From: Candidatus Aegiribacteria sp. | GTDB taxonomy: Bacteria > Fermentibacterota > Fermentibacteria > Fermentibacterales > JCC-6 | Direction: 5' to 3' | NCBI GenBank assembly: GCA_021108435.1 | Contig: JAIOQY010000162.1 | Span: forward strand, 1 to 45,840 | DNA: 45,840 bases | Shown here: piece by piece, positions 4,810-14,837 of the stretch | How positions within the stretch are numbered: position 1 is the stretch's first letter | Layout of the letters: each line of letters starts with the position of its first letter | Translations under genes and position numbers: made by a program | The notes under the pieces: model-generated | Databases searched by the model: none | What the model saw: only the letters and a program-made list of their open reading frames with translations | Told to the model about the DNA's origin: nothing

Positions 4810-4908
4810 TTAGACATAATGGTTGGACCACCCTTCTGTACGGTTATCGTTTAGCAACTACTAACGATATATAACCGTTTGGTTGTGTGGTCCAACCATT
4901 ATGTCTAA
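4810..4908. repeat. 99-bp palindromic element with 22-bp perfect inverted ends
   Basis: The outer arms 4810-4831 and 4887-4908 are perfect reverse complements (22 of 22). Inside, ACGGTTAT (4840-4847) pairs with ATAACCGT (4871-4878), and CGTTTAG is almost complementary to CTAACG (4861-4866). The whole element can fold into one long interrupted hairpin. No target-site duplication is visible at the borders and there is no T-tract, so a plain terminator is unlikely. It may be a miniature transposable element, a remnant of one, or a structured RNA. Confidence 0.75.
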
Positions 4909-5257: not shown

Positions 5258-5470
5258 ATGGCACTTGTTAAGTGCGCCTGGTGCAAAGGCACAGGCATTG
5301 ATGGCATCGGAGATTCCCCTTGCGATGTTTGCGGAGGCGATGGCCACATCAATGTGCCGGAACCTGCGACACCCTGCGGAAGATGCAAGGGAACCGGCAA
5401 AATTTACAACGAAGTTCTTGAGGAACACGGAAAATGCGGTGGCTGCAACGGATCAGGCTGGGCCAGCTGA
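5258..5470 (+). CDS. Small protein of four DnaJ-type CxxCxGxG zinc motifs
   Basis: Seventy-residue protein built almost entirely from CAWCKGTG, CDVCGGDG, CGRCKGTG and CGGCNGSG. These match the central cysteine-rich domain of DnaJ/Hsp40, which binds two zinc ions and helps hold unfolded substrates. No J domain or C-terminal chaperone domain is present, and the frame is complete with ATG and AGGGAG at good spacing. Free-standing versions are known in bacteria, sometimes as partners of other enzymes, but this one has no obvious client. It is flanked by intergenic DNA upstream and converges with the minus-strand operon ending at 5515. A cytoplasmic zinc-binding or chaperone-like role is the most that can be said. 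Confidence 0.8.
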   Translation: MALVKCAWCKGTGIDGIGDSPCDVCGGDGHINVPEPATPCGRCKGTGKIYNEVLEEHGKCGGCNGSGWAS

Positions 5471-5514: not shown

Positions 5515-5910
5515 TTAGTATGTAATCGCGTCAGGGGATTCTCCTTCAGAGGATTCATTTTCAATGCAGATGAATACACCTGAAGGGACACATATTGCCA
5601 GATCCCCGGCTGATGTCAGCCACCCCTTTCTGACGCAGTCCTGTCCGGGGCATGGAGATTCCGATATTCTGGCTCTGCTGCTGTCAATCTGTATCTCCAG
5701 CTGTCCCATGTTTCCATTCACTCTGAAGGAAGTATCCCGGTCAAGCGGCAGATATTCAGTGTTTCCGGCGGTGTGAATCACCAGCAGAAGTCCGTCTGAA
5801 TCCTGAGCGCTGTTTGATAAATGCAGCACTAGAAGAACCAGACCCGCGATCAACAGTATGAGAAGATCTGTCAGGCGGAAGAACGGGATATCCTTATCTG
5901 ATGATTTCAT
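5515..5910 (-). CDS. NusG_II-domain membrane-anchored protein
   Basis: Protein of 131 residues with one N-terminal membrane segment (about residues 12-30), followed by an extracytoplasmic beta domain. The domain has ESPCPGQDCVRKGWL and LAICVPSGVFI, the signature of the NusG domain II family (PF07009), including its CxxxxC cysteine pair. It is not the transcription factor NusG. In other bacteria such proteins often lie next to ApbE or electron-transport genes. Here it is last in a run after ApbE and a radical SAM enzyme, and its start overlaps the upstream gene by 17 bases. A redox or flavin-related role at the membrane is inference. Confidence 0.8.
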   Translation of the reverse strand: MKSSDKDIPFFRLTDLLILLIAGLVLLVLHLSNSAQDSDGLLLVIHTAGNTEYLPLDRDTSFRVNGNMGQLEIQIDSSRARISESPCPGQDCVRKGWLTSAGDLAICVPSGVFICIENESSEGESPDAITY

Positions 5911-6916
5911 AAATAAGATTCAGGTCGCGACCGCACACCCTGCATAAGCCTTTGTTCATGCCGTCAGTATTTACTTCAATACCGGCTCTGCTCACGCATA
6001 GATTGGAGCAGGATGGACAAATAATATTCCCGCTGTCCAGCCCCACGTTCCCGAGATAGACAAAATTGAGTTTCTCAGAGAATACTTCCTTTGCGTGGAT
6101 TAGTGTCTCAACGGGAGTAGGATGGCTCTTCAGCTTGTACCTGGGAAAATATCTTGAAATATGAAGCACTGTATCGTCACCGCATTCATGCGCGAGCCAG
6201 TCAGCCATTTTTTTCCATTCATCAGGAATATCATTTTCACCCGGAATAACAAGAAATGTGACCTCCAGATGACATTCGGAGTCAGCCAGAATTTTTAATG
6301 TATTGAGAACAGTCGGCAGTGATCCGGCACAGTGTTCTGTGTAAAACTCATCCGACCAGGATTTAAGATCGATATTCCAGGCATCGATTATTCCGATCAG
6401 CTCCCTGAGAGGCTCCGGATTGATCATTCCATTTGAGACCATGACCGAGACACCGCCCTTTTCCCGGACAAGTGGTGCTGAATCGTAAATGTATTCGTAC
6501 CATATTGAAGGCTCTGTATATGTATAGGCTATTCCGACACTCCCGCTGCTCATAGCCATTAAAGCAAGATCAGGCGGGGAAACATATCTTACAGGTACGT
6601 TATTTTTCTGGGAGATCGACCAGTTCTGACAGAAATCACAGCTCATGTTGCATCCGGCCGGACCGGTTGAAAAAATTGATGAACCGGGAAGAAAATGGTA
6701 CAGCGGTTTTTTCTCAATCGGATCGATCGAAAGTGATACGCATCCCCCATATCCGGGAAGGTATGGAACTCCGTTTTTAACGCCCCGGACTCTGCAGAAC
6801 CCGATCGAAGTAGAATCAGCGTCCCAGGTACACCCTCTGGGACAGAGCAGGCATCTCCACTTTTCCCCGTCCTTCTCGAACCACTCGGGCTTTCTCACAC
6901 TTCCCCCCTTTTCCAT
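5894..6916 (-). CDS. amrS: AmmeMemoRadiSam-type radical SAM enzyme (AmrS family)
   Basis: Protein of 340 residues. The radical SAM cluster motif CxxxCxxC lies at about residues 89-96 (GCNMSCDFCQNWSIS). It is preceded by the family-specific block DPIEKKPLYHFLPGS and by a Cys-rich N-terminus (C22, C25, C29, C41). The C-terminus adds a second cysteine group (CPSC...CRVCG). This architecture belongs to the pyruvate-formate-lyase-activase-like AmmeMemoRadiSam family, whose substrate is not established. The usual AMMECR1 and Memo partners are not in the window. It overlaps apbE by 22 bases and the NusG_II gene by 17. A GTG seven codons downstream sits too close to the GGGGGG tract, so the ATG at 6916 is preferred. 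Confidence 0.85.
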   Translation of the reverse strand: MEKGGSVRKPEWFEKDGEKWRCLLCPRGCTWDADSTSIGFCRVRGVKNGVPYLPGYGGCVSLSIDPIEKKPLYHFLPGSSIFSTGPAGCNMSCDFCQNWSISQKNNVPVRYVSPPDLALMAMSSGSVGIAYTYTEPSIWYEYIYDSAPLVREKGGVSVMVSNGMINPEPLRELIGIIDAWNIDLKSWSDEFYTEHCAGSLPTVLNTLKILADSECHLEVTFLVIPGENDIPDEWKKMADWLAHECGDDTVLHISRYFPRYKLKSHPTPVETLIHAKEVFSEKLNFVYLGNVGLDSGNIICPSCSNLCVSRAGIEVNTDGMNKGLCRVCGRDLNLIYEIIR

Positions 6917-7902
6917 TCCAGCAGATTCCCGGCTTCATCTTCCATAATTACAATAATCAAACTGAAGAGCGAATCAGGTACTGAGGATGCAATATCTGTT
7001 CCCCCTACCGCAATAGCTGTAGCCAGCGCGTCTGCAATCACGGATCTGTCGGCAACAACGGTCACCGAAGCCACTCCTGTTTCCGGATATCCGGTACGGG
7101 GATCAAGAATGTGACAGAACCGTCTTTCATTTTCGAATATACAGCTTTCATAGTCTCCTGAAGTGGCGACCGCGCCATTTTCAAGCATGATCATTTCCTG
7201 AATCTCATTCAGTCTTGGATTTCTTACGGCAAGCCTCCAGATCCTTCCAGTTTCAGGATCACCTCCACAGCGAATCTCCCCTCCGATCTCAACCAGAACA
7301 GCATATGCGCCACGCTTCACAGCAAGATCAAAGACTCGATCCGCCGTATATCCTTTCGCTATAGCGCCAAAATCCAGGAGTGTCCCTGGATTCAGTCGGA
7401 TTGTATCTCCGGAGGTTGCGAGATTTTTCAGGCCGGATACGAAAAGGGCATTTTCAATTGAAAGACTGTCCGGAATATGCGGATCATTCGGAAATCCCCA
7501 CACGTTTACGAGAGCTCCAATTGAGGGATCAAAAAGTGAATCCGTTACAGAGGCAATAAGGAATGAGACTTCCAGAAGATGCCGGAGATCAGTGGACATT
7601 TCAGAGATGCATGCATAACCGCGTTTGTTAAATAAAGATACTTCTCCCTGACTGAACACACCCAGCTCAAAATCAAGATGCCTGGCAAGTGAATCCATTG
7701 CGCCCAGGATATTGTCTGCTGATTCTTCCTGCGCAATAACTACGTACGTCGCATATGTACCCAGAACCGGAGTTCTTCTGCGCATCTCAACAAGTTCAGT
7801 TTGCTTCTGTATAGTAATCGCACGAATCAGTACGGCAATCAGAACAGTCAGCATCAGAATAACCATTAGAACATACGACGATAGCTTCCTGCTCCGGGGC
7901 AT
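6895..7902 (-). CDS. apbE: FAD:protein FMN transferase (ApbE)
   Basis: ApbE attaches FMN covalently to Thr or Ser of target proteins outside the cytoplasm, using FAD and Mg2+. The frame is open further upstream, but ATG at 7902 is chosen because it forms a TAATG stop/start overlap with the preceding gene and gives a product of 335 residues starting just before a single membrane segment. Family blocks in order: RRTPVLGTYATYVV, FDPSIGALVNVWGF, LDFGAIAKGYTADRV, VEIGGEIRCGG, ATSGDYES, HILDPRTGYP and DRSVIADALATAI, the last carrying metal and active-site residues. There is no lipobox, so it is anchored by the membrane segment. The target flavoprotein is not obvious in the window. The NusG_II gene downstream hints at an extracytoplasmic flavin or electron-transfer module. 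Confidence 0.92.
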   Translation of the reverse strand: MPRSRKLSSYVLMVILMLTVLIAVLIRAITIQKQTELVEMRRRTPVLGTYATYVVIAQEESADNILGAMDSLARHLDFELGVFSQGEVSLFNKRGYACISEMSTDLRHLLEVSFLIASVTDSLFDPSIGALVNVWGFPNDPHIPDSLSIENALFVSGLKNLATSGDTIRLNPGTLLDFGAIAKGYTADRVFDLAVKRGAYAVLVEIGGEIRCGGDPETGRIWRLAVRNPRLNEIQEMIMLENGAVATSGDYESCIFENERRFCHILDPRTGYPETGVASVTVVADRSVIADALATAIAVGGTDIASSVPDSLFSLIIVIMEDEAGNLLEWKRGEV

Positions 7903-8219
7903 TAAAATTGTCCCCGCCGCTCCTCCTCTTTCTTGATATCCAGATGATATCTGCAGTATTTGGAACCTGGCACTGAAGGACGACCGCACTCGATACACTT
8001 AAGTGTGTCACCTGCTTTACGGCGAATTTCCTGAGGCGGCGCGCCGATGCCGGATATTTGCATAAATATCAATCCAACACCGGAAACAGGTATCAGGAAC
8101 GAAGAAAGGCCTGCCAGAGCCCAGGTGAATCCCCTGGAACTGCCCAGAAGAAAGCCCAGAGTCCAGATCAGGATACTGGCGATAAGACAGATTTTCAATA
8201 TCGTTCTGAGTCTCCTCAA
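7902..8219 (-). CDS. Small two-TM protein with C-terminal zinc-finger-like tail
   Basis: Unrecognised protein of 105 residues. Two hydrophobic segments (about residues 8-27 and 32-55) are followed by a tail with CIECGRP and KYCRYH, a C2-CH arrangement likely to bind one zinc on the cytoplasmic side. The start is TTG at 8219, with AAAGGA 8 bases upstream; no other Met exists until past both membrane segments. It is coupled to apbE by a TAATG overlap and follows the 8274 gene after 54 bases. Function is unknown; membrane location with a small metal-binding tail is all that can be supported. Confidence 0.6.
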   Translation of the reverse strand: MRRLRTILKICLIASILIWTLGFLLGSSRGFTWALAGLSSFLIPVSGVGLIFMQISGIGAPPQEIRRKAGDTLKCIECGRPSVPGSKYCRYHLDIKKEEERRGQF

Positions 8220-13689: not shown

Positions 13690-13959
13690 CTATCTTCTCA
13701 ATCCGAGTTCTTTTATTATTGTCCTGTACCGCTCAATATCCTTTTTACTCAAGTAATTGAGCAGTTTTCTCCTCTTACCGACCATCTTCAAAAGTCCCCT
13801 TCTGCTGTGATGGTCATCTTTGTGAATCTTACAGTGTTCGGTAAGGTTCTTAAGCTTTTCTGTCAGAATCGCTATCTGAACTTCAGACTTACCTGTATCC
13901 TGTTCTTTTTCTCCGAATTTTTTTACAAGTTCTGCCTTTTTATCGGCGGTGATACTCAT
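13690..13959 (-). CDS. rpsO: 30S ribosomal protein S15
   Basis: Eighty-nine residues, exactly the usual S15 length when started at 13959 (MSITADKK). Conserved blocks GSEVQIA-like [33 protein letters not shown] and [10 protein letters not shown] are present. It binds 16S rRNA early in 30S assembly. GGAGG lies about 10 bases before the ATG, and the ATG overlaps the ribF stop as ATGA. Confidence 0.97.
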
Positions 13960-14837
13960 CTTTCTGGATCCTCCATCCATTTTTCTTCTTCAGCAAGTTT
14001 CTTAACATCTCTGACATCCTCTGCTATAAGGTCTGATAACTCACCCATGGAATCAGGTGATGCTATACCTCTCAGCCTCGAGCAGAAGCTGACGGTCATA
14101 CCGCAGCCATACATATTCTCTATCCGGTTGATCAGATGAGCTTCAACCGGACCGGTGGCGTTTCCCGGAACAAATACGGCTGCAGGCATTCGCCTGTCAC
14201 TTTCATCAAGGGTTACAATTCCGGCATAGCTTCCGCGTTCCGGAAGCAATTTACAGAATGGAACCCTGACATTTACAGTGGGAAAACCTAATCTGCGTCC
14301 CACTCCTTTGCCTCTCGATACGACCCCGGTAACTGAATATTTTCTGCCAAGCAGCAATTCAGCCTGACGAACATCACCGTTTTCGAGAAGATTTCTGATT
14401 CTTTCGCTTTTAACAGGTACATCTCCGGTCTTCAGCGGAGGTACAATAATAGTATCAATTCTTCTTGAAGTACACCATTGCTTGAGAAAATGCTCCGTGC
14501 CTTTCCGCTCTCTGCCAAAATGGAAATCGTAACCAACAACAAGTCGTGAAAACTGCTCCCTTGCATAAAGATCCTCAAGAAAGACCTCAGGCTCCATATT
14601 TACCGTAATATTATCAAAAGGATACAGGAGAATCTTCTTTATTCCCAACTCGCGTAATATTTTTGCTCTCTCAAATGAAGTTGTAAGACGTCTTGACCAC
14701 GATCCTTTTCCGAAATACTGACGAGGCACCGGCTCGAAACAGACAACACCCGCGTTTCGGTCTTTCAGCAGCGCTGCCCTTATCACCACTTCATGACCCA
14801 TATGTATCCCATCGAAACTGCCGATTGCCAGTGTCAT
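13956..14837 (-). CDS. ribF: Bifunctional riboflavin kinase / FAD synthetase
   Basis: Converts riboflavin to FMN and then FAD in the cytoplasm. The N-terminal nucleotidyltransferase domain has the HxGH-type motif [24 protein letters not shown] and a degenerate SxxRIR motif ([13 protein letters not shown]). The C-terminal kinase domain has [16 protein letters not shown] and the GxYAG block. At 293 residues it is slightly shorter than most RibF proteins (~310), because the ATG falls close to the first motif. It lies 4 bases after truB and overlaps rpsO by 4. Its FAD is the donor used by ApbE, encoded further down the same run. Confidence 0.94.

Follow-up and report, generated by a model that had tools for sequence, protein, structure and literature searches.

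An AmrS-family radical SAM enzyme encoded with ApbE and an EetA-type NusG_II protein in Candidatus Aegiribacteria: a possible FAD-delivery and flavinylation module

Among described systems, the closest to the locus treated here is the EetA-EetB-FmnB/ApbE set, known from extracellular electron transfer (EET) in Listeria and from the vicinity of Rnf in Clostridia. Excerpts of PMC9973259 describe EetB as an ECF-S subunit that binds flavin adenine dinucleotide (FAD) and belongs to an exporter supplying FAD to the ApbE-like FmnB, and report eetB in 4,214 genomes, near eetA in 3,328 and near apbE in 2,169, with Rnf and EET systems as the commonest partners and with EetA-EetB fusions in 14 genomes. 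Targeted delivery to ApbE is raised in the same excerpts because extracellular flavin levels did not change detectably in eetB mutants. In L. plantarum, an eetA/B deletion gave no flavin-dependent current according to excerpts of PMC9888254. Here, we analysed a stretch of 45,840 nucleotides from Candidatus Aegiribacteria sp. (Fermentibacterota; contig JAIOQY010000162.1 of assembly GCA_021108435.1), hereafter the window, in which the genes for ApbE and an EetA-type NusG_II protein flank a gene for AmrS, a radical S-adenosylmethionine (SAM) enzyme of the AmmeMemoRadiSam family. This linkage recurs in three phyla, and the NusG_II protein ends in a conserved tail that resembles part of the ApbE target motif. 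A preliminary description of the window had interpreted the cluster as a possible flavinylation or redox module acting outside the cytoplasm, and our results support that reading, with the qualification that AmrS has no membrane segment and would thus be the cytosolic part of the module.

The cluster comprises four minus-strand genes that run head to tail and overlap, all found where they had first been described (Table 1). The leading gene encodes a small zinc-tailed protein with two transmembrane (TM) segments (ZnTM). Its stop codon shares the sequence TAATG with the start of ApbE, which makes ATG 7902 the likely ApbE start in place of the GTG at 7998 proposed earlier. Further downstream, the stop codon of ApbE overlaps the possible GTG start of AmrS, and the end of AmrS overlaps the start of NusG_II by 17 bases. 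Three of the four proteins score above their family cut-offs, namely ApbE (PF02424, 203 bits against 25.6), AmrS (TIGR04337, 285.6 against 220) and NusG_II (PF07009, 67.5 against 29.6), while no family exceeds its cut-off in ZnTM (WRC, 17.4 bits against 28.6). ApbE aligns to T. maritima TM1553 (1VRM, 2.8e-38) through SGDYE and HILDP-TGYP, and also to solved flavin mononucleotide (FMN) transferases. The window AmrS carries the N-terminal C4, the CX3CX2C and the C-terminal CxxC/CxxC motifs and is 89-93% identical to AmrS of three metagenome-assembled genomes of Candidatus Aegiribacteria. By hydrophobicity, ApbE and NusG_II each possess one N-terminal membrane segment, ZnTM two and AmrS none; a weaker second hydrophobic stretch of NusG_II (residues 98-116) lies inside its folded beta domain. 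The motif [ST]GA[ST] occurs in none of the four proteins.

Table 1. Coordinates of the cluster genes, the EetA tail and the Memo-AMMECR1 fusion loci (window positions unless a locus is named).
Feature	Location	Strand	Description
ZnTM	7902..8219	-	105 aa; hydrophobic segments 7-25 and 35-53; C-terminal CxxC...C tail; leads the operon
ApbE, FAD:protein FMN transferase	6895..7902	-	335 aa; N-terminal membrane anchor 11-29
AmrS paralogue, radical SAM enzyme	5894..6916	-	start ATG 6916 or GTG 6898; no membrane segment
NusG_II / EetA-type protein	5515..5910	-	131 aa; one N-terminal TM, beta domain, flexible linker
C-terminal pentapeptide D-A-I-T-Y of NusG_II	5518..5532	-	resembles first four residues of ApbE target motif
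Memo-AMMECR1 fusion loci	L076:6278-7918 (G000:C182), L048-L051, L060-L063, L093, L190, L300, L305-L315, L319		

Neighbours were counted within 2.5 kb of NusG_II. The loci from the window's phylum (n=30) reach only 1.5 kb either side, some loci end close to the gene so that missing neighbours may be contig ends (e.g. G167), and the genomes compared share ancestry and are not statistically independent. In the window's phylum, 37/42 genomes encode NusG_II, and AmrS adjoins it in 36 of these 37 (29/30 loci read plus seven by coordinates; the exception is G017), with ApbE nearby in 29/30 loci. Among WOR-3 genomes, 47/147 possess NusG_II. One locus was read per such genome, including G159 and G165, which have two NusG_II places; AmrS was found on the same strand in 36/47, PF07456 (the EetB family) in 35/47, ApbE in 28/47, and AmrS together with ApbE in 26/47. 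From Spirochaetota, 198 genomes were drawn, of which 87 encode NusG_II, and 88 loci were scored, leaving out one weak place under the cut-off (G307:C3); PF07456 was near NusG_II in 67/88, AmrS in 11/88 and ApbE in 10/88. Thermotoga maritima, which served as a control, yielded hits for NusG_II, AmrS, ApbE, AMMECR1 and Memo. By our estimate, based on one to four AmrS per ~2.2 Mb, AmrS would lie less than 2.5 kb from NusG_II by chance in ~0.2-1% of genomes, against 36/47 in WOR-3. In the window's phylum and WOR-3 together, 60 of the 65 loci with linked genes have AmrS and NusG_II in overlapping same-strand frames (measured between stop codons). The cluster is thus kept across phyla, and its conservation rules out an arrangement specific to this assembly.

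Gene order differs between the phyla: ApbE-AmrS-EetA in the window's phylum, ApbE-AmrS-EetA-EetB in WOR-3 and EetA-EetB-AmrS in Spirochaetota. In one spirochaete, EetB and AmrS even form a single open reading frame (L267:2529-4082) of 518 aa, with PF07456 at residues 36-180 and AmrS at 199-512, the only such fusion seen. Memo or AMMECR1 lay within 2.5 kb of NusG_II in just one of 165 loci (L190) and in none of ten loci of 12-19 kb from the window's phylum, and neither is present in the window, as had been noted before. Conversely, a search from AmrS yielded 13 loci beyond the window's phylum, with the ApbE-AmrS-NusG_II trio in one (WOR-3, L038), AMMECR1 near AmrS in five Bacillota and neither in seven. 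ZnTM adjoins ApbE in 10/10 long loci (L079-L088) and also in L032-L034, and was found in 0/47 WOR-3 and 0/88 Spirochaetota loci, so that its proposed membership of the module does not extend to the loci read outside the window's phylum. In one spirochaete (L277:2184-3973), genes for a diadenylate cyclase (CdaA) and a YbbR protein precede EetA and EetB, and gene lengths suggest the same in others.

In the annotated Listeria EET locus (L320), the PF07009 protein is named EetA and the PF07456 protein EetB (family checked). Judged by family match and sequence signature, the window NusG_II is likewise an EetA-family protein: a single TM segment is followed by a NusG_II domain with three conserved cysteines (C87, C92, C107), while an adjacent eetB (PF07456) is absent from the window. 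The membrane anchor of the preliminary description is retained, and its cysteine pair becomes a three-Cys signature. The signature is present in 164/167 NusG_II proteins, and in the EetB-adjacent EetA of Listeria, Enterococcus gilvus and Monoglobus, but is absent from Lin0431-like and EF3258-like proteins. The model of the window protein (pLDDT, the predicted local distance difference test, 89.8) adopts a NusG domain II fold, shared with the solved structures of Lin0431 and DUF1312 proteins; FHA-like and other matches (Z < 6) were not used. A role as transcription factor was ruled out, as the domain follows a TM segment and Aquifex NusG matches its fold in domain II alone. Likewise, the absence of [ST]GA[ST] excludes a flavin acceptor by the known motif, and an NqrM-like iron-delivery protein for Rnf was dropped as a candidate after the EetA identification. 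That NusG_II corresponds to EetA, whose usual neighbour is the FAD exporter subunit EetB, strengthens the flavinylation reading. Neither of the two results named beforehand as speaking against a module was found, namely a neighbourhood unique to this assembly or Memo and AMMECR1 adjacent in place of ApbE.

Further evidence comes from the EetA C-terminus, studied in 167 distinct complete NusG_II proteins (proteins running off the locus before a stop were excluded). The window protein ends in ESPDAITY. Asp occupies position -5 in 158/167, is joined by Ser or Thr at -2 in 116/167, and belongs to the full pattern D-[AGS]-[ILVM]-[ST]-x in 88/167. Both marks occur in 32/32 tails of the window's phylum, 43/46 of WOR-3, 39/85 of Spirochaetota and 2/4 of Bacillota. 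After thinning to less than 40% identity in the folded core, Asp -5 remained in 31/35 and both marks in 28/35, while only one of 359 C-termini from seven other families at the same loci combined the two. In proteins with the Asp, a linker of 11 to 28 residues separates the tail from the domain; with this varying length, it is the C-terminus to which the tail is fixed. Excerpts of PMC12052999 give the ApbE target motif as D-x-x-[ST]-G-A-[ST], and the pattern in 19 local FMN_bind motifs is D-[ASG]-[IMV]-[TS]-G-[ASC]-T. The EetA tail resembles the first four residues of this motif, without the acceptor Thr; we estimate from background composition that a given four-residue stretch would fit by chance in about 1 in 2,500 cases. 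The tail Asp is also kept in 56/63 Spirochaetota rows without AmrS and ApbE in the locus, 22 of them with Ser or Thr at -2.

The window genome is 95.6% complete and contains a single ApbE match, the window copy, and a single FMN_bind (PF04205) match, RnfG, encoded in a complete rnfCDGEAB operon on contig C61. The flavinylated FMN_bind lipoprotein PplA was thus not found there. The search for FMN-binding motifs suggested in the preliminary description led to Rnf itself, with DAISGAT in RnfD and the variant DAMTGCT in RnfG. These two proteins are likely candidates for flavinylation by ApbE, judging from their motifs and from the pairing of a sole ApbE match in the cluster with a sole FMN_bind match in RnfG.

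AmrS exceeds its cut-off twice in the same genome, and the window AmrS (285 bits) is a paralogue distinct from the canonical copy on contig C182 (391 bits). The latter adjoins a Memo-AMMECR1 fusion, and C144 carries Memo and AMMECR1 as an unfused pair, so that both partners, which were to be located, occur in two sets. Encoding of amrS together with Memo and AMMECR1, which marks the AmmeMemoRadiSam system, thus applies to the C182 paralogue and not to the window AmrS; the latter is ruled out as their partner by neighbourhood, as the second AmrS holds that place. In a tree of 78 AmrS rows (quick method, midpoint root, no bootstrap, short fragments L170 and L180 left out), seven canonical Memo-AMMECR1-linked rows, including that of the window genome, and two unlinked ones stood apart from all 59 NusG_II-linked rows, with a support of 97 in the Shimodaira-Hasegawa-like approximate likelihood ratio test (SH-aLRT). 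Five Bacillota rows linked to AMMECR1 fell on the NusG_II-linked side, in no resolved order. Every group retains the cysteines of the N-terminal and radical SAM motifs (the N-terminus is missing from one WOR-3 row), and those of the C-terminal motif are lost only in 2/14 window-phylum rows, one WOR-3 row and 2/12 Memo/AMMECR1-linked rows, some of them fragments. The two window-phylum rows are L083 (genus g4) and L086 (genus g3), and matches there mostly end early. An extra cysteine (canonical C196) is present in 12/12 Memo/AMMECR1-linked and 14/14 window-phylum rows, the position being hydrophobic in 34/34 WOR-3-linked rows. The AlphaFold model of AmrS (pLDDT 95.0) has the pyruvate formate-lyase activating enzyme 3CB8 as its best solved match (TM-score 0.78 by target length).

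The Memo and AMMECR1 genes themselves showed further patterns. Memo-AMMECR1 fusions (Table 1) start with a signal-peptide-like stretch in 10/10 cases from the window's phylum, all lipobox-like, and in 14/15 from WOR-3, seven of them lipobox-like; under the same simple rule of our own, applied without a signal-peptide program, 0/12 unfused Memo proteins have such a hydrophobic start. These fusions may be exported lipoproteins. By eye, across the 42 genomes of the window's phylum, canonical AmrS goes with the fused form and linked AmrS mostly with the unfused pair, like two parallel sets. Exceptions are G002, G013 and G019, with linked AmrS and no unfused pair, and G006, G018, G021, G025 and G026, with an unfused pair or fragments and no linked AmrS. 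Near canonical AmrS, the window genome encodes RtcB (PF01139, L076:12097-13320), and an annotated RtcB (L327:1075-2247) is also found near amrB-amrS in Segatella.

We lean, with modest confidence and as the slightly more probable case, towards reading the cluster as an operon for FAD delivery and flavinylation in the maturation of the Rnf complex, with AmrS as its cytosolic radical SAM partner. FAD would be made in the cytosol and exported, via EetB where this is present. EetA, with its beta domain presumably outside the membrane, might serve as an adaptor at the FAD exit site, where its flexible tail, acting as a pseudo-substrate, would hold ApbE in place; ApbE would then receive FAD directly on export and place FMN on RnfG and RnfD. 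The half motif of EetA would in this case be a targeted-delivery device of the kind raised in the excerpts of PMC9973259. AmrS would act in the cytosol at the inner face of the exporter, a location suggested by the EetB-AmrS fusion, on a protein or flavin of the pathway. A protein or peptide target is slightly favoured by analogy, since the nearest solved relative of AmrS is pyruvate formate-lyase activase.

Several observations weigh against this flavinylation operon. Most AmrS are unlinked: in WOR-3, AmrS exceeds the cut-off in 137/147 genomes, while NusG_II occurs in 47 and the linkage in 36. AmrS was also found in 0/10 Bacillota NusG_II loci of 3-12 kb, and together with the 11/88 Spirochaetota loci this implies that EetA and EetB need no linked AmrS in general. 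PF07456 was detected neither in the window nor in loci from its phylum (0 in 0.57 Mb, partly overlapping), no whole-genome PF07456 search having been made. The rnf operon lies on a contig other than that of the cluster, in RnfG a Cys replaces the Ala of the quoted motif, and two genomes, G025 (88% complete) and G026 (71% complete), have an FMN_bind match and no ApbE or NusG_II match. As for the tail, fewer than half of the Spirochaetota proteins (39/85) have both marks, and Asp -5 occurs in only two of seven named Bacillota and Fusobacteriota tails (Haliovirga and E. faecalis); Listeria EetA ends in DPIISS, and the Monoglobus tail DAVTGK has its Asp at -6. An eetA deletion in Listeria had no EET phenotype according to excerpts of PMC9973259. 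Binding of the tail to ApbE and action of AmrS on flavin, EetA or EetB are, moreover, proposals drawn from sequence.

The frame overlap of AmrS and NusG_II in 60/65 linked loci would also suit an AmrS that modifies EetA itself, e.g. at the C-terminal pentapeptide or at the cysteines before export, which would make EetA the product and not the ApbE adaptor. The best fold match, pyruvate formate-lyase activase, acts on a protein, radical SAM domains akin to the Memo-Ammecr1 type occur in peptide-processing systems according to excerpts of PMC7159879, and the conservation of the tail at the extreme C-terminus behind a variable linker fits as well. However, Asp -5 persists in 56 of the 63 Spirochaetota rows that lack AmrS and ApbE, AmrS follows EetB rather than EetA in Spirochaetota, and the tail should lie outside the membrane while AmrS lies inside, so that we regard EetA as an unlikely substrate. 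AmrS might instead alter or repair the FAD exported by EetB, which would place the linked AmrS and, by extension, Memo and AMMECR1 in a flavin-cofactor pathway. Memo belongs to the fold family of aromatic-ring-cleaving dioxygenases, and ApbE is part of the window's operon too. EetB, which binds FAD according to excerpts of PMC9973259, forms one polypeptide with AmrS in L267, but most Spirochaetota NusG_II-EetB loci lack a linked AmrS. Moreover, we know of no modified flavin for Rnf, and a flavin substrate thus appears quite improbable. The same low standing applies to the broader proposal that the AmrS family, with Memo and AMMECR1, serves flavin-cofactor delivery, AmrS modifying flavin or EetA/EetB and EetA acting as an adaptor that displays the ApbE half motif so that no exported FAD is lost on the way; we consider it quite improbable as well.

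A different possibility is that AmrS is a passenger, inserted in an ApbE-EetA operon and kept by linked expression, which serves an ordinary AmmeMemoRadiSam system with Memo and AMMECR1 encoded elsewhere. Such partners are widely available, with AMMECR1 in 40/42 and Memo in 39/42 genomes of the window's phylum and Memo in 141/147 of WOR-3, and the linked AmrS is the sole match in some WOR-3 genomes (e.g. G045 and G063). No alignment column separates NusG_II-linked from Memo/AMMECR1-linked AmrS (thresholds >=90% vs <10%), so that nothing there points to a changed substrate, which also counts against the flavinylation operon that we favour. On the other hand, a passenger would hardly be expected in three gene orders and in a fusion with EetB, the linked AmrS groups apart from the canonical paralogue of the same genomes, and ApbE-AmrS-NusG_II persists in G013 (98% complete), where neither Memo nor AMMECR1 gave a match. 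We therefore think a passenger role improbable.

Other features of the window lie close to the cluster. Between a glycosyltransferase gene and the NusG_II gene, a 99-base imperfect palindrome (4810-4908) has two 38-base arms that are 84% complementary and 23 bases apart, and is perhaps a small non-autonomous mobile element. A 70-aa protein of CxxCxGxG-type repeats (DnaJ-like zinc motifs, by eye) is encoded on the plus strand at 5258-5470, convergent with the NusG_II gene. About 6 kb upstream of the cluster and on the same strand (13956-14837, minus), RibF, a FAD synthetase and riboflavin kinase, lies in a run that includes, by eye, polynucleotide phosphorylase and translation genes. This placement probably follows the usual bacterial gene order and still puts FAD supply near ApbE.

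The association of EetA, EetB, ApbE and Rnf is already known, whereas the partnership with AmrS, its fusion to EetB and the tail of EetA are new; none of the three was found in the literature searched, which did not cover supplements. The main texts of two flavinylation surveys make no mention of NusG, radical SAM, heptaprenyl or Gx transporter, an ApbE review mentions neither NusG nor radical SAM, the term 'radical' is absent from PMC9973259, and a paper on Effluviviacota does not mention radical SAM. Searches pairing ApbE or flavinylation with NusG_II or NusG domain II matched no paper. The linkage would put AmrS, EetA and the handover of FAD to ApbE at one place, the exit of FAD at the membrane. 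If AmrS indeed acts there, this would be a first place of work for an enzyme whose partners Memo and AMMECR1 have human relatives. Recurrence in three phyla makes this a testable place of work for the AmrS family, and the conserved EetA tail allows a direct test.

The locus thus combines traits of several known systems. With pyruvate formate-lyase activating enzyme, AmrS shares the core fold (3CB8) and CX3CX2C, but has in addition a Cys4 motif at its N-terminus and a CxxC/CxxC domain at its C-terminus, and none of the cluster genes was recognised as encoding a glycyl radical enzyme. As in the AmmeMemoRadiSam system, the window AmrS exceeds the TIGR04337 cut-off with all motif cysteines, yet Memo and AMMECR1 are not adjacent and the tree places linked and canonical AmrS in separate groups. 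Rnf maturation by ApbE is mirrored in the complete rnfCDGEAB, the RnfD motif, the RnfG variant and the single ApbE, although this ApbE resides in an AmrS-EetA operon and not beside rnf. Compared with the EetA-EetB-FmnB/ApbE set, an AmrS-family enzyme is added, and the window operon lacks EetB, is led by a two-TM zinc protein and has no PplA found in its genome; the two nevertheless agree in having EetA (PF07009) and ApbE in one cluster, in the association with Rnf and, across most WOR-3 and Spirochaetota loci, in having EetB next door.

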